Shown: positions 10,325 through 54,496 of the stretch, one piece after another
Numbering within the stretch: the stretch's first letter is position 1
How the letters are laid out: every line of letters starts with the position of its first letter
Origin: Butyrivibrio fibrisolvens
Lineage (GTDB): Bacteria; Bacillota; Clostridia; Lachnospirales; Lachnospiraceae
Assembly: GCF_023206215.1 (NCBI RefSeq)
Contig: NZ_CP065800.1
Span: forward strand, 3,906,001 to 3,970,000
Length of the DNA: 64,000 bases
Reading direction: 5' to 3'
The notes under the pieces: model-generated
Told to the model about the DNA's origin: nothing
Database searches by the model: none
What the model saw: the letters and a program-made list of their open reading frames with translations, nothing else
Position numbers and translations under genes: made by a program

Positions 10325-11200
10325 ATGAAGGAGTTTACACCTATTAAGGAAGGCAAGGTTCGTGAGATCTACGATACAGGAGACAATCTTATTATGGTTG
10401 CTACAGACCGTATCTCCGCTTTCGACGTTATTCTCAAAAACAAGGTTGTTAAAAAGGGTGCTGTTCTGACTCAGATGTCCAAGTTCTGGTTCGACTATAC
10501 ATCTGATATAGTTGCCAATCATATGATAAGTACTGATGTTAAGGATATGCCTGAATTTTTCAACCAGCCTCAGTTTACAGGCAACAGCATGCTTTGCAAA
10601 AAGCTTACAATGATCCCTGTAGAGTGTATCGTTCGTGGTTACATCACAGGAAGCGGCTGGGAAAGCTATAAGACAAACGGCACAGTATGCGGCATAAAGC
10701 TCCCTGAAGGACTTAAGGAATGCGACAAGCTCCCTGAGCCTATCTACACTCCTTCCACCAAAGCCGAGATCGGTGATCATGACGAGAATATAGATTTCGA
10801 AAGAAGCGTAGAAGTTCTTGAAAGAGACTTCCCGGGACATGGCAGAGACTACGCCGAGAAGATCCGCGATTATACAATAGCTCTTTATAAGAAGTGCGCT
10901 GACTATGCACTTACAAGAGGCATAATCATCGCTGATACCAAGTTCGAATTCGGTCTTGATGAAAATGGCGCGGTAGTTCTTGCAGATGAGATGCTCACTC
11001 CTGATTCAAGCCGTTTCTGGCCTTTAGAGGGATATGAAGCAGGTCATTCACAGCCTTCATTTGACAAGCAGTTCGTACGTGACTGGCTCAAGGCCAATCC
11101 TGACAGCGACTACAATCTCCCTCAGGATGTTATAGACAAAACTATCGAGAAATACAAAGAAGCATATAAACTCCTTACAGGCAAGGATCTCGAGGCATAA
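10325..11200 (+). CDS. purC: phosphoribosylaminoimidazole-succinocarboxamide synthase
   Basis: The ATG at 10325 has GAGAGG just upstream and gives a 291-residue protein beginning MKEFTPIKEGKVREIYDTGDN; the in-frame extension upstream covers the promoter and is rejected. SAICAR synthetase joins aspartate to CAIR using ATP in purine synthesis. Family segments visible include VATDRISAFDVILKN, PVECIVRGYITGSGWESYK, and the DEMLTPDSSRFWP signature near residue 220. The length is that of the longer bacterial/eukaryotic type rather than the 237-residue E. coli type. It is monocistronic, with its own promoter, upstream motif shared with purF, and a strong terminator. Confidence 0.96.
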   Translation: MKEFTPIKEGKVREIYDTGDNLIMVATDRISAFDVILKNKVVKKGAVLTQMSKFWFDYTSDIVANHMISTDVKDMPEFFNQPQFTGNSMLCKKLTMIPVECIVRGYITGSGWESYKTNGTVCGIKLPEGLKECDKLPEPIYTPSTKAEIGDHDENIDFERSVEVLERDFPGHGRDYAEKIRDYTIALYKKCADYALTRGIIIADTKFEFGLDENGAVVLADEMLTPDSSRFWPLEGYEAGHSQPSFDKQFVRDWLKANPDSDYNLPQDVIDKTIEKYKEAYKLLTGKDLEA

Positions 11201-14286: not shown

Positions 14287-14987
14287 TCAATATCCTCTAT
14301 ATCTGTAGGATGCAGATTATCATCGATTCTGTCAGCCTTACCGTTTCTAATGTGTATGACACGATCAGCCATAGGGCATATAGCAAGGTTGTGCGTTATG
14401 ACAACTACAGTGATCCCCTGCTTTCTTGCCATATCCTGAAGGATCTTAAGTACCTGCTTGCCGGTCACATAGTCAAGGGCACCTGTAGGCTCATCGCATA
14501 GAAGTATCTTAGGATTCTTGGCAAGAGCTCTGGCTATGGCAACTCTTTGCTGTTCACCACCTGATAGCTGCGCAGGAAAGTTGTTGACGCGATGTGAAAG
14601 TCCCACTCTTTCGAGAGCTTCAAGGGCGTCCATAGGCTCTTTACAGATCTGGGAAGCAAGCTCCACATTTTCCTTGGCTGTCAGATTCTGTATCAGGTTA
14701 TAGAACTGGAATACAAATCCTATATCATATCGTCTGTACATAGTGAGCTGACGCCTGTTAAAGCCGCTGACAAGGACATCATCCACGATGATGGTCCCTG
14801 ATGTACATACATCCATTCCTCCTAGCATATTTAGAACTGTAGTCTTGCCGGCTCCGGAAGGTCCCACTATGATAGTGAACTTACCCTTATCTATGGTAAA
14901 AGATGCTCCGTCTACTGCTTTGATCGGCACTTCACCCATGTTGTACTGCTTTACAACATTGTCAAATGTGATATAACTACTATCCAT
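14280..14987 (-). CDS. ABC transporter ATP-binding protein, LolD/MacB family
   Basis: A 235-residue ATPase with Walker [10 protein letters not shown] near residue 41, signature [15 protein letters not shown] and Walker [12 protein letters not shown], followed by the H-loop histidine in VVITHN. The TGALD and GEQQR wording is characteristic of the LolD/MacB/FtsE branch that partners FtsX-like permeases. It overlaps the start of the permease gene by seven bases, so the two are translationally coupled. AAGAGG precedes the ATG. Confidence 0.93.
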
Positions 14988-15283
14988 ATCTCATAACCTC
15001 TTTTATACTTAGCAAGTTATCTGTTGTACAATTATCCTTATCATTTTTCGGCTTATTTGAAGGATTTTATAAGAGTCTGTCGGGAATATCCCCTGCTTCT
15101 GACAATGAATCGTTCCCTCCCTTTTTACATATAAATCTACCGACTCATAAAGCGGTTTTTTAGACTATATAAATTTTGATATAAATTTCCTTTATAATGG
15201 ACTGTTTTTATGCAACTATACAAAATATTAATTTTGTAGTTATTAATGACTTATTTCATGGTATTATTGTCGTGGCAAAAAGT

Positions 15284-15299
15284 TTGACTGAACGTTCAA
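15284..15299. promoter_or_regulatory. 16-bp motif upstream of the purF homologue
   Basis: TTGACTGAACGTTCAA, the same motif as at 10196-10211 with one base different. It contains a perfect 10-bp palindrome, TGAACGTTCA, and sits 57 bases before the purF start. TACAAT at 15303-15308 could be a -10, which would place the motif over the promoter. Confidence 0.65.
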
Positions 15300-15355
15300 A
15301 CTACAATTTTAAACATGGCAATAAAATCCCTATTTTATTCCAGAAAGAGGCATGC

Positions 15356-16780
15356 ATGGGTGGTTTTTTCGGATTAGCATCTCACGAGGATGCAGTTTTT
15401 GATCTATTCTATGGAACTGATTATCATTCACATTTGGGAACAAGACGCGCAGGTCTGGCGGTATACGACAGTGAAAAGGGTTTTGACCGCGCTATCCACA
15501 ACATTGAATCTTCAAACTTCCGTCCTAAATTCGACAAAGATATCCTTCACATGAAAGGAAATATCGGAATAGGCTGTATTTCAGACTTTGAGCCTCAGCC
15601 TCTTATCGTTCGCTCTCATCATGGCACATATGCTATCACTACAGTCGGCAGAATCAATAATGTTGACGAGCTTACAGATAAACTCTTTGAGAATAACCGT
15701 TCTCACTTCCTTGAGATGAGCGGCGGAGATGTAAATCCAACTGAGCTTGTAGCTTCTCTTATCAATCAGCAGGATACCATAGTAGACGGTATCCGCTTTG
15801 CTCAGGATCATATCAAGGGTTCTATGACACTTCTTGTTATGACCAAAGACGGAATCTATGCAGCCCGCGACAAGTTCGGCCGTACTCCTGTAGAGATCGG
15901 CCATAAAGAAGGCGCATACTGTGCTTGTTTTGAAAGCTTCTCATATCTTAACCTTGGATATGAACCTTATAAAGAACTAGGACCAGGAGAGATCGTATTC
16001 CTTACTGCTGACGGAGTAGAGACACTCTCAGCTCCCCGCAAAGAGATGAAGATCTGCACATTCCTCTGGATCTATTACGGATTCCCTGCAGCATCCTATG
16101 AAGGCCTCAATGTAGAGCAGGCAAGATATAACTGCGGTTTCAAACTTGCTGACAGAGATATCCAGCGAAGGAACGTATATCCTGATCTTATCGCCGGCGT
16201 TCCGGATTCCGGAGTTGCACATGCGATCGGATACTCTAACAGATCAGGTATCCCATATGCAAGACCATTTGTTAAGTACACACCTACATGGCCCAGATCC
16301 TTTATGCCTACTATCCAGTCAAGGCGTAATCTTATTGCCAAGATGAAGCTGATCCCTATAGAGGACCTTATCAAAGATAAAAAACTCCTCCTTATCGATG
16401 ATTCTATCGTTAGAGGAACACAGCTACGAGAGACTACAGAATATCTGTATGACAAGGGAGCTAAAGAAGTACACATCCGTCCCGCATGCCCTCCGCTTGT
16501 ATTCGGATGTCCTTATATAAGCTTCTCCAGATCCAACTCAGACAGAGAACTTATCACAAGACGAGTTATCGAACAGCTTGAAGGCAATCCTAATCCTTCA
16601 AGAGAAACTCTTGACAAATATACAGATCCGGATTCAGAGCAGTACGCAGCAATGCTTGAAGAGATCAGAAAGCAGCTCAACTTCACTTCTCTTCACTATC
16701 ACAGACTTGACGATATGATCGAAGGTATCGGTATAGAGTCCTGCAAGCTCTGCACATACTGCTGGAACGGCAAAGGCTAA
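15356..16780 (+). CDS. PurF-type amidophosphoribosyltransferase homologue with erased glutaminase site
   Basis: The ATG at 15356 has AAAGAGG five bases upstream and gives 474 residues. The C-terminal half is a clear PurF phosphoribosyltransferase: GVPDSGVAHAIGYSNRSGIPY and LLIDDSIVRGTQLRET (about 344-359), the PRPP loop, and a cysteine-rich end (CKLCTYC) fitting the iron-sulfur cluster of Bacillus-type PurF. The N-terminal half keeps the Ntn fold pattern but not its chemistry. The N-terminal catalytic Cys is absent (MGGFFG replaces CGVFG), the Arg of GHVRYST is Cys74, the NGN asparagine is Val (TVGRINN), and the Asp near residue 127 is Asn/Pro. Glutamine hydrolysis is therefore unlikely; ammonia use, a partner glutaminase, or a regulatory role are possible. 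Coregulation with purC is suggested by the shared motif. Confidence 0.85.
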   Translation: MGGFFGLASHEDAVFDLFYGTDYHSHLGTRRAGLAVYDSEKGFDRAIHNIESSNFRPKFDKDILHMKGNIGIGCISDFEPQPLIVRSHHGTYAITTVGRINNVDELTDKLFENNRSHFLEMSGGDVNPTELVASLINQQDTIVDGIRFAQDHIKGSMTLLVMTKDGIYAARDKFGRTPVEIGHKEGAYCACFESFSYLNLGYEPYKELGPGEIVFLTADGVETLSAPRKEMKICTFLWIYYGFPAASYEGLNVEQARYNCGFKLADRDIQRRNVYPDLIAGVPDSGVAHAIGYSNRSGIPYARPFVKYTPTWPRSFMPTIQSRRNLIAKMKLIPIEDLIKDKKLLLIDDSIVRGTQLRETTEYLYDKGAKEVHIRPACPPLVFGCPYISFSRSNSDRELITRRVIEQLEGNPNPSRETLDKYTDPDSEQYAAMLEEIRKQLNFTSLHYHRLDDMIEGIGIESCKLCTYCWNGKG

Positions 16781-16790
16781 ATAATAACTA

Positions 16791-16832
16791 AACTTCCCAC
16801 TTGGATGGTGCAGTATCACCAAATGGGAAGCT
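16791..16832. repeat. hairpin carrying the CACTTGGA-GGTGCAGTA repeat in stem and loop
   Basis: CTTCCCACTTGG pairs with CCAAATGGGAAG with a single G-T wobble. The 14-base loop holds GGTGCAGTA, so the full repeat is 16798-16815. It sits ten bases after the purF homologue stop. Confidence 0.7.
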
Positions 16833-16853
16833 TGAGATAATAATAATAATAAT

Positions 16854-16897
16854 AAAGCTTTCTTACTATTTTGATCATCAGTAAGAAAGCTTTTTTT
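16854..16897. terminator. bidirectional terminator between purF homologue and GGDEF-EAL gene
   Basis: AAAGCTTTCTTACT (16854-16867) pairs perfectly with AGTAAGAAAGCTTT (16880-16893), followed on plus by a run of Ts. On the minus strand an ATT repeat follows. It is preceded by a (TAA)n run. Confidence 0.85.
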
Positions 16898-17010
16898 ATG
16901 TTCATTTTGTTAAACATATCGTATATATCATCATGATATAAATTATAAAAATAATATATACAATAATCTTTTATTTTTTCTTATCTAAATTCTTATCAAT
17001 TCAGCGTCTG

Positions 17011-18672
17011 TCAAGTCGCATGATACAAAGGAAGCTTCTTGAGCTCTTCGATACTTACAGGCTTGGAATAGTAATAACCCTGGAAAGAATCTGCAGGGAA
17101 CTTATCTCTTACAAAGCCAAGCATCTCAGCATTCTCGATACCTGTAAGTGCAACATGTACATTCATGTTGTGTGCAAAGCCTGACATAGCTTCTACTATG
17201 TACTGGTTTACAAGGTTCTTGTCTATATCTCTAAGGAATCTTCTGTCAACCTTGATAAGGTCTATAGGAAGAAGTCTTAGAAGATCAAGTGAGCTAAAGT
17301 CTTCCACATCAAGAGCTATCTGGCTTCCAAGTGACTTCATAAAGTCTACCTGACTCTTAAGATGCTCTCTACTCATGTCACGGCAACGCTTGGTAAGTTC
17401 AAGCGTAAGATTCTTAACCGGGAATCTGGTACGTCGCAGCAGTTCCATAAGAGAAGTTCTGAACTCGCTTCGCTCAAGCTGCATGAATGTAAGATTTATA
17501 TTGAGCATGAAATCAGGGAATACTGCTACTATTCCACGAGTCTCATTAAATGCCTGCTCTAGGATCCAGTTACCAAGCTCAAAGAATACACTGTCATTCT
17601 CTAAAAGAGGTATAAATGTATCAGGCATTACCTCGCCATATTTCTCACTCTTCCATCTAATAAGAACCTCTGCACCTATCATATGATTATCTTTGGAAGA
17701 TACTATAGGCTGGTACACAAGATAGAAGCCTTCACATCTGTTCATGATATCTGCACGTATTGCATCAAGGAGCTCTATACGTCTTGCATTCTGTTCCTGA
17801 TGTTCATTGTGATATACTACAAGTCCGCCATGATTCATATCCTTGGATACATCCAAAGCATACTTGGCACTTGTATATATAGTATGCTCATCAAGAGCAA
17901 AGTTCTCAACAACGACTATACCACCTGCAATACTTACAGGAACTCTTGTGCCGGCAACGTAGAACGCAGTCTTAAGCTGCTCACGCATTCTCGAATACAG
18001 ACGCCTTACTTCATCAAGAGACAGCGAACCTGTTATAGCTACAAGGCTCGTTCCATCACCTCTGTATATCTTGCCATCACTCTTAACAAGATTAGAAAAA
18101 AGATCTGCCTGTGCTCTCAGAAGCTGATTACCAAAAGAATAACCGTATGTACGGTTAATATCATCAAATCTTATTGTATCAATTACAAGAACAACAGATT
18201 TCTGCTTGCGATCACGTCTTTGACGAAGTTCATTGAACAGCTGATACAGATTGTCTGTATCTGTGATCGGATCTCTGTTTGAAACTATTCCGTGATTGGT
18301 AATAAAGAATGCAAGATAAGCAGGTCTACCCGAATAATCCTTTATGATAGTTCCTTTGCTGGAGCAGGCTACGTACTCACCATTCTTGTCCATAGCTCTA
18401 TACTCCATAGGAGCTTCCTGATTGATACCTGCTATCATGGCGGTTATACGCTGTTCATAATTCTTACGGTCATCAGGATGGATACGTTTGTGCCAGTCAT
18501 CGTCGGCATTCTCTATATATTCTCCTGACAGTCCGAAAAATTCTACCGCATTGGTTGACCATCTTGCATAGTGATTAAAGATATCATACACAACTGCGTA
18601 TCGGCTCTTAGATACAACTACAAAAGTATCAAATATCCTACTTATTGTGTCATTAAGTCCGGTCCTAGGCAT
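17011..18672 (-). CDS. PAS-GGDEF-EAL protein with both catalytic motifs degenerate
   Basis: A 553-residue soluble protein with a PAS fold at the N-terminus (about 1-130), a GGDEF-like domain (about 135-300) and an EAL-like domain (about 305-550). The GGDEF signature is YRGDGTSLV near residue 207, losing the second Gly and the Asp-Glu-Phe. The EAL triad is EVL near 333, the ELTE metal site is ELTK, DDFG is replaced by DVED, and the AEGVE glutamate is lost (ALTGIEN). It is thus probably neither a cyclase nor an active phosphodiesterase, but may bind c-di-GMP or GTP as a sensor, as known for degenerate homologues. The ATG has GGGAGG upstream. It is monocistronic and divergent from the PH-domain gene. 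Confidence 0.85.
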   Translation of the reverse strand: MPRTGLNDTISRIFDTFVVVSKSRYAVVYDIFNHYARWSTNAVEFFGLSGEYIENADDDWHKRIHPDDRKNYEQRITAMIAGINQEAPMEYRAMDKNGEYVACSSKGTIIKDYSGRPAYLAFFITNHGIVSNRDPITDTDNLYQLFNELRQRRDRKQKSVVLVIDTIRFDDINRTYGYSFGNQLLRAQADLFSNLVKSDGKIYRGDGTSLVAITGSLSLDEVRRLYSRMREQLKTAFYVAGTRVPVSIAGGIVVVENFALDEHTIYTSAKYALDVSKDMNHGGLVVYHNEHQEQNARRIELLDAIRADIMNRCEGFYLVYQPIVSSKDNHMIGAEVLIRWKSEKYGEVMPDTFIPLLENDSVFFELGNWILEQAFNETRGIVAVFPDFMLNINLTFMQLERSEFRTSLMELLRRTRFPVKNLTLELTKRCRDMSREHLKSQVDFMKSLGSQIALDVEDFSSLDLLRLLPIDLIKVDRRFLRDIDKNLVNQYIVEAMSGFAHNMNVHVALTGIENAEMLGFVRDKFPADSFQGYYYSKPVSIEELKKLPLYHAT

Positions 18673-20851: not shown

Positions 20852-21226
20852 TTATTTAAGATAAGCAATTATCTCAACTTCGCACAGTACATTCTTAGGA
20901 AGCTGCTTGACAGCAACACAGCTTCTTGCAGGCTTACCTGTAAAGTATTTCTCATATACTCCGTTGAACTTGGCAAAGTCGCCCATATCTGCAAGGAAGC
21001 ATGTTGTCTTAACTACATGCTCATAATCTGTTCCTGCTGCCTTTAATATCTCTCCGATATTGCGGCATACAAGATCAGTCTGCTCTTCGATATCAGCTCC
21101 TTCAATCTCACCTGTTGCAGGATTGATCGGAATCTGACCTGATGCATAAAGGAAATCTCCCGCGATTATACCCTGTGAATATGGTCCGATAGCTGCCGGA
21201 GCCTTGTCTGTAGATACTTTTTTCAT
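20852..21226 (-). CDS. RidA-family enamine/imine deaminase
   Basis: With the ATG at 21226 (AAGGAGG upstream) the protein is 124 residues, the normal RidA length. It starts MKKVSTDKAPAAIGPYSQG, has FLYASGQIPINPATGE, and ends with PARSCVAVKQLPKNVLCEVEIIAYLK, including the substrate-binding arginine and the final glutamate of the family signature. RidA hydrolyses reactive 2-aminoacrylate and related enamines made by PLP enzymes. It lies 46 bases from the lipoprotein gene and 90 bases downstream of the 84-aa gene. Confidence 0.93.
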   Translation of the reverse strand: MKKVSTDKAPAAIGPYSQGIIAGDFLYASGQIPINPATGEIEGADIEEQTDLVCRNIGEILKAAGTDYEHVVKTTCFLADMGDFAKFNGVYEKYFTGKPARSCVAVKQLPKNVLCEVEIIAYLK

Positions 21227-21315
21227 AATAACTTCCTCCTTAGATATAGATTTAAAAAAATACTTATAGTACAAATAATAATACTTATACTAAATACACA
21301 TGATCCAAAGCGTTT

Positions 21316-34562: not shown

Positions 34563-34795
34563 GTTTTCGTCTCCCTTTGGATATATGGATTATCATACGT
34601 GCGCATTATTAAATGTACGATATAATGACACATTCACGCAATAGCCATTATATTCAAAATGCATAAATAGTTACGGAACTTTTTGTGCATTATTTCGTTT
34701 CTTATCAATATGACGTTTGAGGGAAGGTTATGTTCAAAGGATATCTTGAATAAATCCTCTTACTGTGTTAGATTTAATAAGGTTAAGAATTGAAT

Positions 34796-34894
34796 ACCTG
34801 CTAGGGGAGCTTTGCTGAGAAGAGCCTTTTGTTATACTGATAACATGGCTTGACCCTTATTACTTGAACCGGGTAATACCGGCGTAAGGAAGCA
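34796..34894 (+). promoter_or_regulatory. TPP riboswitch
   Basis: The conserved core is clear: CTAGGGGAGC, then GCTGAGA, then TGACCC, ACTTGAACC, GGGTAATACC and GGCGTAAGGAAG. These are the thiamine pyrophosphate-sensing helices. Downstream GTTTCCTTG (about 34943-34951) could pair either with the aptamer end AAGGAA or with the thiT ribosome site CAAGGAGG, so switching may act on translation. It precedes thiT by 120 bases. Confidence 0.96.
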
Positions 34895-35016
34895 TTTCAT
34901 TATCAACTTTCTGTAAGTGTGACGCACTAATTCTAACGGATCGTTTCCTTGGGCATATTCAAAAAACTAATATTTTATTACATTTTTTCAGCTAATGCTG
35001 CAAGGAGGGATATTCA

Positions 35017-35727
35017 ATGTCATTATTCTTCAATGCTGTCACAAGTGATGGCGAAACCACTTATTCATTCACTACCGCAGGCTACGCAGCCCTTATTATC
35101 GTGCTGATCGCTGCAGTTGTAGCCGCATGTTTTTTTAAGAACACCAAAGACCAGCACAAATTCAGCACACGCCAGCTTGTAGTATCAGGCATGTGCATAG
35201 CACTTGCATTTGTACTTTCTAATGTCAAGATTTTCAAAATGCCACAGGGTGGATCTATAACCCTTCTATCCATGTTTTTTGTATGCTTTGTTGGATATCT
35301 GTATGGTCTTAGAAGCGGACTTATGGCAGGACTTGCATACGGTCTTCTGCAGATGATCGTAGACCCTTATATCATAAGCTTCCCTCAGATGCTGTTCGAC
35401 TATATATTCTCATTCACAGCGCTGGGACTTTCAGGTCTTACAAGCACCAGAAAATACGGATTGTATTCCGGATATTTAATAGGTATAGTAGGCCGTATGG
35501 TATTTGCAGTTCTGTCAGGTGTTATCTTCTTCGGAATGTATGCTCCTGAAGGTCAGAATGTATGGGTATATTCATTTGGATATAACGGACTGTATATCAT
35601 CACAGAAGCAGCTATCACTATCGTAGTGCTCCTCATCCCTGCTGTCAGAAAGGGACTTAATCAGATCAGAGTTGCTGCCAACGAAGCTGATTCCAAGAGA
35701 ATCGCTGTAAATAAGCTGGCTTCATAA
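35017..35727 (+). CDS. thiT: thiamine ECF transporter S-component
   Basis: A 236-residue membrane protein. After one N-terminal helix extra to the usual family (residues 22-42), the ThiT core of six helices begins STRQLVVSGMCIALAFVLSN, with KMPQGGSITLLSMFFVCFVGYLYGL (thiamine-binding helix and loop) and a conserved GLAYGLLQMIVDPYIISFPQ. S-components capture the vitamin and dock on the general EcfAAT energising module, which is not in this window. The TPP riboswitch upstream confirms thiamine as substrate. AAGGAGGG precedes the ATG. Confidence 0.94.
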   Translation: MSLFFNAVTSDGETTYSFTTAGYAALIIVLIAAVVAACFFKNTKDQHKFSTRQLVVSGMCIALAFVLSNVKIFKMPQGGSITLLSMFFVCFVGYLYGLRSGLMAGLAYGLLQMIVDPYIISFPQMLFDYIFSFTALGLSGLTSTRKYGLYSGYLIGIVGRMVFAVLSGVIFFGMYAPEGQNVWVYSFGYNGLYIITEAAITIVVLLIPAVRKGLNQIRVAANEADSKRIAVNKLAS

Positions 35728-52555: not shown

Positions 52556-52734
52556 TCAAAATGTGTTTAAATATACTTAACACATCGAGAAATTGAAGCC
52601 CTCACGGGTACTTCTTACTGCTTCAACGTGTATGCTTTGGCGATTGCAAGCAATACGCTACTCACAAGTTCTTGTACACTCCACAGTCGTAAATTCCTGC
52701 GATAGCCCACAGTACATACTTACGTTTGCTTTAG
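52556..52734 (-). ncRNA. candidate TnpB guide (omega) RNA region of IS607
   Basis: This is the non-coding 3' tail of the IS607 tnpB transcript up to the element end, where omega RNAs are encoded in known TnpB systems. It contains several short inverted repeats (for instance GAAGC near 52596 with GCTTC near 52620). The guide would be read into the flanking truncated hydrolase gene. Inferred by position; no homologue was recognised. Confidence 0.4.
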
Positions 52735-53895
52735 TTATGCAATTTCGTAAGTTTTGGCATCTCTAAGATTTAGGCTTGCATTAAAATCTCTATCTTCAAC
52801 ATAACCGCAGTCACATCGATAAATTCTATCTGAAAGTTTTAAATCTTTCTTGATATTACCGCAGCAATGGCATATTTTTGATGATGGATACCATCTGTCT
52901 ACAATCCTAAGTTCAATACCGTTATCATCACATTTTGTTTTTAGTTTAGTTCTAAATTCATAAAACTTCTGCGATGCAACAGCTTTTGAAAGATGCCTGT
53001 TCTTCATCATTCCCGACACATTCAAGTCCTCAATAGTTATATAAGACGGCTTGGTTTTCACTATCTCAGCTATTGTCTTATTGATGTAATCCGTACGGAT
53101 ATTGTCTATCCTATGATGGATTTTCTGTACTTTGAGCTTTTGTTTTTGTATATTTTTTTGAGTGGACTCTCCTTTCTTTAAATTTCCATACTTACGAGAG
53201 AGACATTTTTGTTCTCTACGCAATTGTTTTTCTAATTTCCTTAATCTTGTTGATTTGTTGATATTCTTATATGTCTTACCGTTAGAGACAATCGCCAAAT
53301 CTTTTAAGCCTAAGTCAATCCCTATGCCATCATTGCTATTATTGGCAATCTTGACATTAGGAATTTCAACAAGAACTGATACGTAGTATCTACCTGCTCT
53401 AATGGACACTGTACCGCTTTTAATTTTCCATCCGTCTTTAGTTGTAGGTAAATAGCCCTTTTCTTTAAGACGTACCCAACCTAAAGTCGGTATGTTTAGT
53501 CTATGTCTTTCGCAGCAACAATCCTTTGGGTTGTTCTTTACAAAATACATTTTTACATCTGACTTGCCTTTCTTTTTGAAATTTGGAAAAGCACTCTGAT
53601 GTTTGAAAAACCTTGTAAAAGCAGTGTATCCATCTTCAATAGATTTCTTTACTGCTTTTGAATATGCTTCCTTAATCCATACTTTGTCAGGGTTATTAGG
53701 AATATATTCATTATTAAGCCACACACTAAAACTCTTGCCTGTCATGAACTTCTCACCCTTGTCATGTAAGCTTTTGTTATGACCAAGATAGAAGTTGTAG
53801 ACATATCTACAAGTACCAATAGTCTTATTGATTTTAACTTTTTGCTCGGCTGTCGGATTAATTTCCGTCTTGAAGCTCTTTAACAATTTCCTCAT
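52735..53895 (-). CDS. tnpB: TnpB RNA-guided nuclease of IS607, intact
   Basis: A 386-residue TnpB with the N-terminal helix-turn-helix-like start (FKTEINPTAEQKVKINKTIGTCRYVYNFYL, broken by a turn) and the RuvC triad: Asp in GIDLGLKDLA near 192, Glu in TIEDLNVSGM near 288, Asp in EDRDFNASLNL near 368. The zinc ribbon CHCC...CDCG (about 345-362) is present, unlike in the IS605 TnpB nearby. The gene looks intact. It overlaps the recombinase gene by 38 bases. Confidence 0.95.
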   Translation of the reverse strand: MRKLLKSFKTEINPTAEQKVKINKTIGTCRYVYNFYLGHNKSLHDKGEKFMTGKSFSVWLNNEYIPNNPDKVWIKEAYSKAVKKSIEDGYTAFTRFFKHQSAFPNFKKKGKSDVKMYFVKNNPKDCCCERHRLNIPTLGWVRLKEKGYLPTTKDGWKIKSGTVSIRAGRYYVSVLVEIPNVKIANNSNDGIGIDLGLKDLAIVSNGKTYKNINKSTRLRKLEKQLRREQKCLSRKYGNLKKGESTQKNIQKQKLKVQKIHHRIDNIRTDYINKTIAEIVKTKPSYITIEDLNVSGMMKNRHLSKAVASQKFYEFRTKLKTKCDDNGIELRIVDRWYPSSKICHCCGNIKKDLKLSDRIYRCDCGYVEDRDFNASLNLRDAKTYEIA

Positions 53896-54496
53896 CCCTT
53901 TCTATTTGTTTTTTATACTTGCGAAGTCCATACAACCTACAAGAAAACACATGGAGTATTGAAACAATATCCTGTACTAGTTCTTCTTGTGGTGATAGAT
54001 CTTCATTGTTTACTACCATTATGGTCGTATTGAACTTCATACAGAATTTTTCAAACCAATCATAGCCAAAACGGATAAATCTGTCTTTATGCGTTACTAT
54101 GATAGTTTTGATTTTTTGTTCCATGACTTCATCTAATAGTTCATTCCACTTTTTACGGTTGTAATTTAGACCACTTCCATAATCTTCAATACATTGGTCT
54201 ACAATAATACCTCTAGCATTGCAAAACTGCCGTAAAAAAGATACCTGATTATGTAAGTCATCTTTTTGATTTCTTGTAGACACTCTGGCATAAATAACAA
54301 TCTGACGATTATCATTTTCTGTGTTTATACCTTTAAACTGAAGATATTGGTCATAAGTATAATAACGCCTATCAGTTGGAGTTCGGTTCGCCTTTAGAGT
54401 TCCTTCCCTATCCCATCGCTGCAATGTCTTAACGGAAACACCCAATAGTTCGGCAAAATCTTTTGGCTTGTAATTTGTGATATTTGATGTGTTCAT
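53858..54496 (-). CDS. tnpA: IS607 serine recombinase/transposase
   Basis: A 212-residue protein with an N-terminal MerR-like helix-turn-helix (YKPKDFAELLGVSVKTLQRW and RTPTDRRYYTYDQY) and a C-terminal small serine-recombinase domain: IVIYARVSTRNQKDDL with the catalytic Ser near 71, and THKDRFIRFGYDWFEKF with catalytic arginines. This DNA-binding-first order is specific to IS607. AAGGAG precedes the ATG. It looks intact. Confidence 0.95.
   Translation of the reverse strand: MNTSNITNYKPKDFAELLGVSVKTLQRWDREGTLKANRTPTDRRYYTYDQYLQFKGINTENDNRQIVIYARVSTRNQKDDLHNQVSFLRQFCNARGIIVDQCIEDYGSGLNYNRKKWNELLDEVMEQKIKTIIVTHKDRFIRFGYDWFEKFCMKFNTTIMVVNNEDLSPQEELVQDIVSILHVFSCRLYGLRKYKKQIERDEEIVKELQDGN

Follow-up and report, generated by a model that had tools for sequence, protein, structure and literature searches.

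We identified a PurF homologue of 474 aa, here called PurF2, in the window (the whole stretch of 64,000 nucleotides of Butyrivibrio fibrisolvens DNA that was analysed), whose glutaminase active site is lost throughout its clade and whose PRPP site is retained (Table 1). Glutamine is the textbook nitrogen donor for the first purine step; PurF2, as judged from sequence comparisons, is very probably a PRPP:ammonia phosphoribosyltransferase that forms phosphoribosylamine from PRPP and free NH3. Direct use of free ammonia is the simplest account because the transferase half is intact, the side chains for cleaving and binding glutamine are gone, and PurF2 replaces PurF in the pathway.

The PurF2 reading frame is open from position 15197, the homologous protein begins at ATG 15356 and the stop codon ends at 16780, in agreement with the coordinates of the preliminary description. 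An upstream start that would place a Cys directly after the initiator Met, which that description had raised against its own reading, is absent: the codons ahead of the ATG are GCA TGC, i.e., no initiator precedes the upstream Cys, and a Cys at −1 occurs in two of the 148 loci with a readable start (the window and L064). An alternative start restoring Cys1 is thus ruled out. PurF2 belongs to the PurF fold family, with Ntn and type I PRTase domains over the whole chain; its residues 3–388 align to B. subtilis PurF 1ao0 (phmmer, E 8e-48). The AlphaFold model (mean pLDDT 83.5, pTM 0.83, alignment of 63 sequences) is least confident in the flexible loop (residues 308–316) and at residues 391–393, and its best 17 PDB matches in Foldseek are all PurF chains with a TM to query of 0.75–0.81 (0.79 for 1ao0, 0.81 for 1gph). 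The NCBIfam purF model TIGR01134 gives PurF2 179 bits, which is below the curated cut-off of 350, and its full-length relatives 146–203 bits among the matches listed. By sequence, PurF2 is not a glutamine-dependent PurF, as the defining features were looked at and are lacking.

Loss of the glutaminase site was assessed in an alignment that combined 203 unique PurF2 relatives with 1ao0 and 21 canonical PurFs from the same order (B. subtilis numbering). Residue 2 of PurF2 falls in the Cys1 column, which holds Gly (n = 191) or Ser (n = 12) in the relatives and Cys in all canonical rows. The Arg26 position is Leu in 203/203 relatives, and B. subtilis residues 72–79, the glutamine loop that carries an Arg and a Tyr (Arg73 and Tyr74 in E. 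coli numbering), are deleted in every one of them. The Asn102 position (E. coli Asn101) is occupied by Val (n = 187), Ile (n = 13), Thr (n = 2) or Ala (n = 1). Asp127 is lost in 200 relatives (Ala 71, Pro 69, Gln 23, Ser 21, Glu 6, Val 3, Thr 2, His 2 and single Leu, Met and Asn) and retained in three, the window protein not among them. Cys1, Arg26, the loop, the Asn and Asp127 are all invariant in the 21 canonical rows. Chance loss is excluded because none of the 203 relatives keeps Cys1, Arg26, the loop or the Asn. The E. coli glutamine loop R73–E84 is described as binding a glutamine analogue and moving with the PRPP flexible loop K326–L350 (PMC7953260).

The preliminary description had stated that every glutaminase residue is replaced, which holds for Cys1, Arg26, the loop and the Asn but is a slight overstatement, as the Gly of the Asn-Gly pair is retained in 171/203 relatives. 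It correctly read a Val (Val97) in place of the Asn and a change at the Asp position (Pro128); its placing of Cys74 at the Arg position was mistaken, since Cys74 aligns with His70 and the Arg was deleted along with the glutamine loop. Its suggestion to look for conservation of the changed residues in a clade was followed, and they are shared by the 203 relatives. Two N-domain residues, H24 and L27, are newly invariant in PurF2, which shows that this domain is still under selection, and the mean fraction of the top residue is 0.74 over residues 1–232 and 0.77 over residues 233–474. What preserves the domain may be folding, contact between subunits, entry of ammonia or binding of a new ligand. 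The same losses in all relatives, together with the new invariant residues, rule out that residues were misread or that the gene copy is decaying.

The transferase half, described at the outset as conserved with an intact DDSIVRGT loop, is indeed so: besides the loop itself, Lys305 and Arg311 (B. subtilis numbering) are kept in 203/203 relatives. The flexible loop was remade, with NRYVG of canonical PurF changed to YTPTWP and a Trp inserted in all relatives. The four conserved Cys positions we take to be [4Fe-4S] ligands, and a cluster is predicted. One relative (L163, genome G030) has a damaged PRPP loop, DDSIACGA, and lies beside purE in a genome that also has canonical PurF; it may be decaying or regulatory.

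Table 1. PurF2, its diagnostic positions and the nearest purine gene in the window
Feature	Position	Strand	Evidence or remark
PurF2	15356..16780	+	glutaminase domain ~1–232 without active site; PRPP transferase domain ~233–474, site intact
Met1-Gly2, Gly2 at the place of catalytic Cys1	15356..15361	+	Gly in 191 and Ser in 12 of 203 relatives
C74-I75-S76-D77, deletion point of the glutamine loop (between I75 and S76)	15575..15586	+	gaps in 203/203 relatives
Val97, replacing catalytic Asn101	15644..15646	+	Asn in 0/203 relatives
Pro128, replacing catalytic Asp127	15737..15739	+	Asp in 3/203 relatives
C234, C385, C466, C469 at [4Fe-4S] ligand positions	span 16055..16762	+	203/203 PurF2, 21/21 canonical
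Remade PRPP flexible loop K307-YTPTWPR-SF, Trp312 inserted	16274..16303	+	K307, W312, R314 and F316 invariant in 203 relatives
PRPP-binding loop DDSIVRGT	16397..16420	+	every residue conserved in 202–203 of 203 relatives
purC, nearest purine gene	10325..11200	+	~4.2 kb upstream, two opposite-strand genes between; NCBIfam PRK13961.1, 425 bits, cut-off 251

PurF2 is widespread. Among the matches listed for 295 genomes of the order, its orthologues are full-length at 49–81% identity and stand apart from canonical PurF at 28–36%. At E up to 1e-100, PurF2 was counted in 272 of the 396 near-complete (at least 95%) genomes of the window's family and in 122/391 genomes of its class. The carriers among 80 named loci include Butyrivibrio, Roseburia, Blautia and other Lachnospiraceae and Clostridia, and rumen, gut or faeces is the stated origin of many of these loci. 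Most carriers also have a canonical PurF (46/67 in the order, 49/70 in the class, about 238/272 in the family). This includes the source genome, where the search for a second, canonical PurF recommended in the preliminary description returned one at G000:C1:374895–376247 (524 bits). Within the window's genus, four of the ten genomes examined (G005, G062, G134, G292) have no PurF2, which is thus dispensable in those. Genome G327 has a full-length PurF2 and a canonical purF split in two neighbouring open frames (contig C1, 606969–608133), possibly by decay or sequencing error.

In a considerable number of genomes PurF2 is the only PurF found. The remaining 21 of the 67 order genomes with PurF2 have no purF match above the cut-off. 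In 20 of these purM is over the cut-off, the exception being G154 (68% complete), which is also the exception for purD, matched in all 67 genomes and over the cut-off in 66. Of the 36 genomes without any PurF-like match, 16 were tested, and purM was over the cut-off in two. For 33 of the 396 family genomes, each with a completeness of 95% or more, the purF search gave no match above the PurF2 level, and all 33 carry full-length PurF2. In the class, 21/70 PurF2 genomes of at least 95% completeness lack a canonical PurF over the cut-off, with PurF2 itself partial in G1002. Three PurF2-only genomes are single contigs (G537, G893 and G256, the last 92% complete). The purF model matched 14/14 control genomes (13 over the cut-off), and most divergent PurF types would therefore be detected.

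The purH model matched 44 of 45 PurF2-only genomes: seven have a full PurH that exceeds the cut-off, and the others a stand-alone AICAR transformylase scoring below it. G364 has no transformylase match. Neither kind of PurF was found in four of 39 genomes checked, of which G475 and G526 also lack the transformylase and G507 and G636 have it. The patterns of G364 and G507 imply that a working PurF does not follow from the presence of pathway genes, and G507 and G636 count mildly against the sole-PurF argument. Among transformylase genomes, those without full-length PurF divide into 33 with PurF2 and two with none, and those with PurF into 238 and 120 (Fisher p 4e-4, shared descent ignored). The test assumes 38 genomes without a full-length PurF, as the family count of genomes lacking one full-length canonical match is 38–39 of 396 and the discrepant one is probably G575 (two pieces in one frame). 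A tree of 124 PurF2 proteins (62 from genomes with PurF2 only, 60 with both, two unsure) requires 26 state changes, 18 of them forced by well-supported branches. G848 and G888 have near-identical PurF2 and differ in status, and some assignments to PurF2 only, such as in this pair, are probably assembly gaps. By gene content, as distinct from growth, PurF2 appears to serve as the sole PurF in genomes that hold other purine genes. A role in thiamine synthesis only is unlikely, given the transformylase in 44/45 PurF2-only genomes and purL in several operons.

The genomic position of PurF2 was compared at 165 loci, not all of them independent, as a few represent the same genome region from two sources. 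A purine-gene marker scan placed a same-strand purine gene within 500 bp of PurF2 in 36 loci and none in 129. In 12 loci (L236, L240, L242, L249, L251, L285–L290, L293) the order is purE-(purC)-PurF2-purM, and loci that extend far enough continue with purN, AICAR transformylase, purD, purL and usually an IMP cyclohydrolase-like gene. The gaps from PurF2 to purE/purC and purM are below 140 bp, save for 438 bp on one side in L251. Five of the 12 loci (L236, L240, L242, L249, L251; out of 20 loci examined from PurF2-only genomes of the class) derive from PurF2-only genomes, one of them a closed contig, and the genomes of the other seven have a canonical PurF elsewhere, outside the locus. The IMP cyclohydrolase-like genes at L256 (11831–12616) and L251 (12927–13700) match a PurO-type model at 62 and 56 bits, below the cut-off, and lie beside a stand-alone AICAR transformylase. 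A formate/nitrite-type transporter (Pfam Form_Nir_trans, 88 bits; L251, 11617–12306) separates purM from purN in the purine operon. Further arrangements in other lineages are purB-PurF2-purA and purE-PurF2, and purF adjoins PurF2 (gap below 100 bp) in five loci (L112, L118, L276, L277, L278).

The sister genomes G216 (L257) and G224 (L256) are collinear, the DNA flanking the purF site being 94.8% identical on one side and 96.0% on the other, and share the order purE-purM-purN-(IMP cyclohydrolase-like)-purB-AICAR transformylase-purD-purL. PurF2 is present in both, and purF stands between purE and purM in G216 only; G224 has 102 bp in place of the 1.5-kb block on a continuous contig. G224 (88% complete, PurF2 at L134) has no purF match over the cut-off, an absence that is certain for the operon slot and less so elsewhere in the genome. 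In G077 (L269/L270) the pur cluster lacks purF, and a canonical purF is found on a separate 32-kb contig unmatched in the pur region of its sister G046; this contig is possibly contamination.

In the window itself, asnA (326.5 bits) and ddh (460.8 bits) are over their cut-offs, which upholds that part of the earlier argument that glnN, asnA and ddh show a reliance on free ammonia; the glutamine synthetase-like protein of ~694 aa has only weak GlnA-type matches below the cut-off. No riboswitch above the Rfam gathering score was found near PurF2, and a promoter and terminator scan of 14950–17050 gave no more hits than shuffled sequence. A RidA-family gene lies ~4 kb from PurF2 (20852–21274, − strand). 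A few distant relatives (L139, L141, L162, L163) have a RidA gene ~110 bp or less from PurF2 and in the same orientation, and RidA was rejected as a constant partner, its adjacency being confined to a few relatives of one group. Elsewhere in the window there are only two Rfam hits. One is an ordinary TPP riboswitch (34793–34907, + strand) that precedes a ThiT-like thiamine transporter gene (35017–35724, + strand); the other is a RAGATH-18 RNA (52615–52687, − strand; Rfam score 75 bits), found immediately 3' of a gene for an RNA-guided TnpB (52738–53895, − strand) accompanied by an IS607-type transposase (53861–54496), a position that would be expected of a TnpB guide RNA.

One domain of PurF is described as freeing ammonia from glutamine and the other as joining it to PRPP, and PurF enzymes are also described as using ambient NH3 (PMC12017579). 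PurF2 would carry out the second PurF half-reaction alone, in which free NH3 reacts with PRPP and the products are phosphoribosylamine and pyrophosphate, and its glutaminase domain would persist as a folded scaffold without nucleophile, glutamine loop and glutamine-binding residues. In genomes with both proteins, PurF2 probably provides an ammonia-fed route beside the glutamine-fed PurF, as AsnA does beside AsnB; in genomes without canonical PurF, it would be the sole entry into purine synthesis. We infer the ammonia reaction and its physiological use from what was observed, namely the loss of the site, its conservation across the clade, the sole-PurF status and the operon position. Of the three options in the preliminary description, an ammonia-dependent amidotransferase was the preferred one, and it is also the one favoured by PurF2 being the only full-length PurF in many near-complete genomes with purine genes and occupying the purF slot of operons.

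Ammonia could instead be fed to PurF2 by a glutaminase partner protein, leaving the reaction glutamine-dependent but split over two proteins. The Ntn domain is conserved, and the invariant H24 and L27 could form a docking or delivery surface; the flanking purE/purC and purM genes, however, leave little room for a partner in the 12 operon loci, and a search of representative members from the 30 most common neighbour clusters (120 loci) revealed no glutaminase-type domain and no recurrent glutaminase neighbour apart from canonical PurF. We consider such a partner unlikely. It is more improbable still that PurF2 is a non-catalytic regulator or pseudo-subunit of canonical PurF (a PRPP sensor or part of a heteromer), a role that would fit the presence of canonical PurF in most carriers, the adjacency of the two genes in five loci and the broken PRPP loop of L163. 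Neither a pure regulator nor a subunit dependent on canonical PurF accounts for PurF2-only genomes with purine genes, i.e., the 33 family genomes and further order and class genomes without canonical PurF over the cut-off, three of them single contigs; in addition, PurF2 occupies the purF slot of operons, and its PRPP-site and FeS positions are conserved as in an enzyme. Hardly credible is the use of another phosphoribosyl acceptor or hydrolysis of PRPP in a purine side branch, with phosphoribosylamine arising elsewhere: the remade flexible loop (Trp in 203/203) facing a deleted glutamine loop means that the substrate could differ, G507 keeps AICAR transformylase with no PurF found, and PurF-independent phosphoribosylamine formation is described in Salmonella mutants, but those routes, as described, served thiamine synthesis in purF mutants (PMC3485032), and the PurF reaction itself is favoured, since PurF2 lies precisely in the purF slot and canonical PurF is missing repeatedly.

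PurF2 resembles canonical PurF (EC 2.4.2.14; TIGR01134; PDB 1ao0, 1gph, 1ecb) in its whole-length fold, PRPP loop, flexible-loop Lys and Arg, FeS cysteine positions and operon position, and differs from it by an identity of only 28–36% (among the matches listed), the absence of Cys1, Arg26, the glutamine loop and Asn101, and the nearly constant loss of Asp127. AsnA and AsnB, which have unrelated folds, are a functional parallel, being ammonia-fed and glutamine-fed versions of one step; unlike AsnA, PurF2 derives from its counterpart, PurF. In the open-licence PMC literature, PMC3261824 is, among the matches listed, the sole paper to suggest that a PurF relative depends on ammonia. It concerns archaea, and its crenarchaeal PurF', the closest description to PurF2, is a PurF paralogue without N-terminal Cys near purine genes, proposed, as a suggestion only, to be an ammonia-dependent transferase. 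PurF2 shares the missing Cys and a position near purine genes, and the same activity is proposed for it here. According to the same text, a normal PurF is also present in each crenarchaeon studied, whereas PurF2 is often the only PurF found and in the purF slot; PurF2 also has other hosts and, as far as the text on PurF' shows, a greater loss of the site, PurF' being compared by description only (PMC3261824). E. coli PurF without Cys1 is reported to lose glutamine use and keep ammonia use (Mei and Zalkin 1989, as cited in PMC3261824). That mutant is a one-residue laboratory change, in contrast to PurF2, a natural family in which nearly the whole glutaminase site is gone.

A wider picture is possible, and we put it forward tentatively: a repeated, class-wide shift of the first purine step to obligate ammonia use, in which a new conserved site, made up of H24, H26, L27, T29 and the YTPTWP lid, might have been built from the dead glutaminase domain to capture or gate ammonium or to sense nitrogen status, with two-enzyme cells switching the nitrogen donor for purines.

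PurF2 is a natural and widespread PurF that should be unable to use glutamine, in bacteria of ammonia-rich habitats. In genomes with PurF2 only, no second PurF confuses the picture, and this turns the suggestion made for archaeal PurF' into a testable case. The protein is also a natural scaffold to study the PRPP site without interdomain channelling. Azaserine and DON are inhibitors acting at the glutamine site, and such compounds should not affect PurF2-type proteins. If PurF2 is taken for a glutamine-dependent enzyme in annotation, metabolic models assign the wrong nitrogen donor to the first step of purine synthesis.
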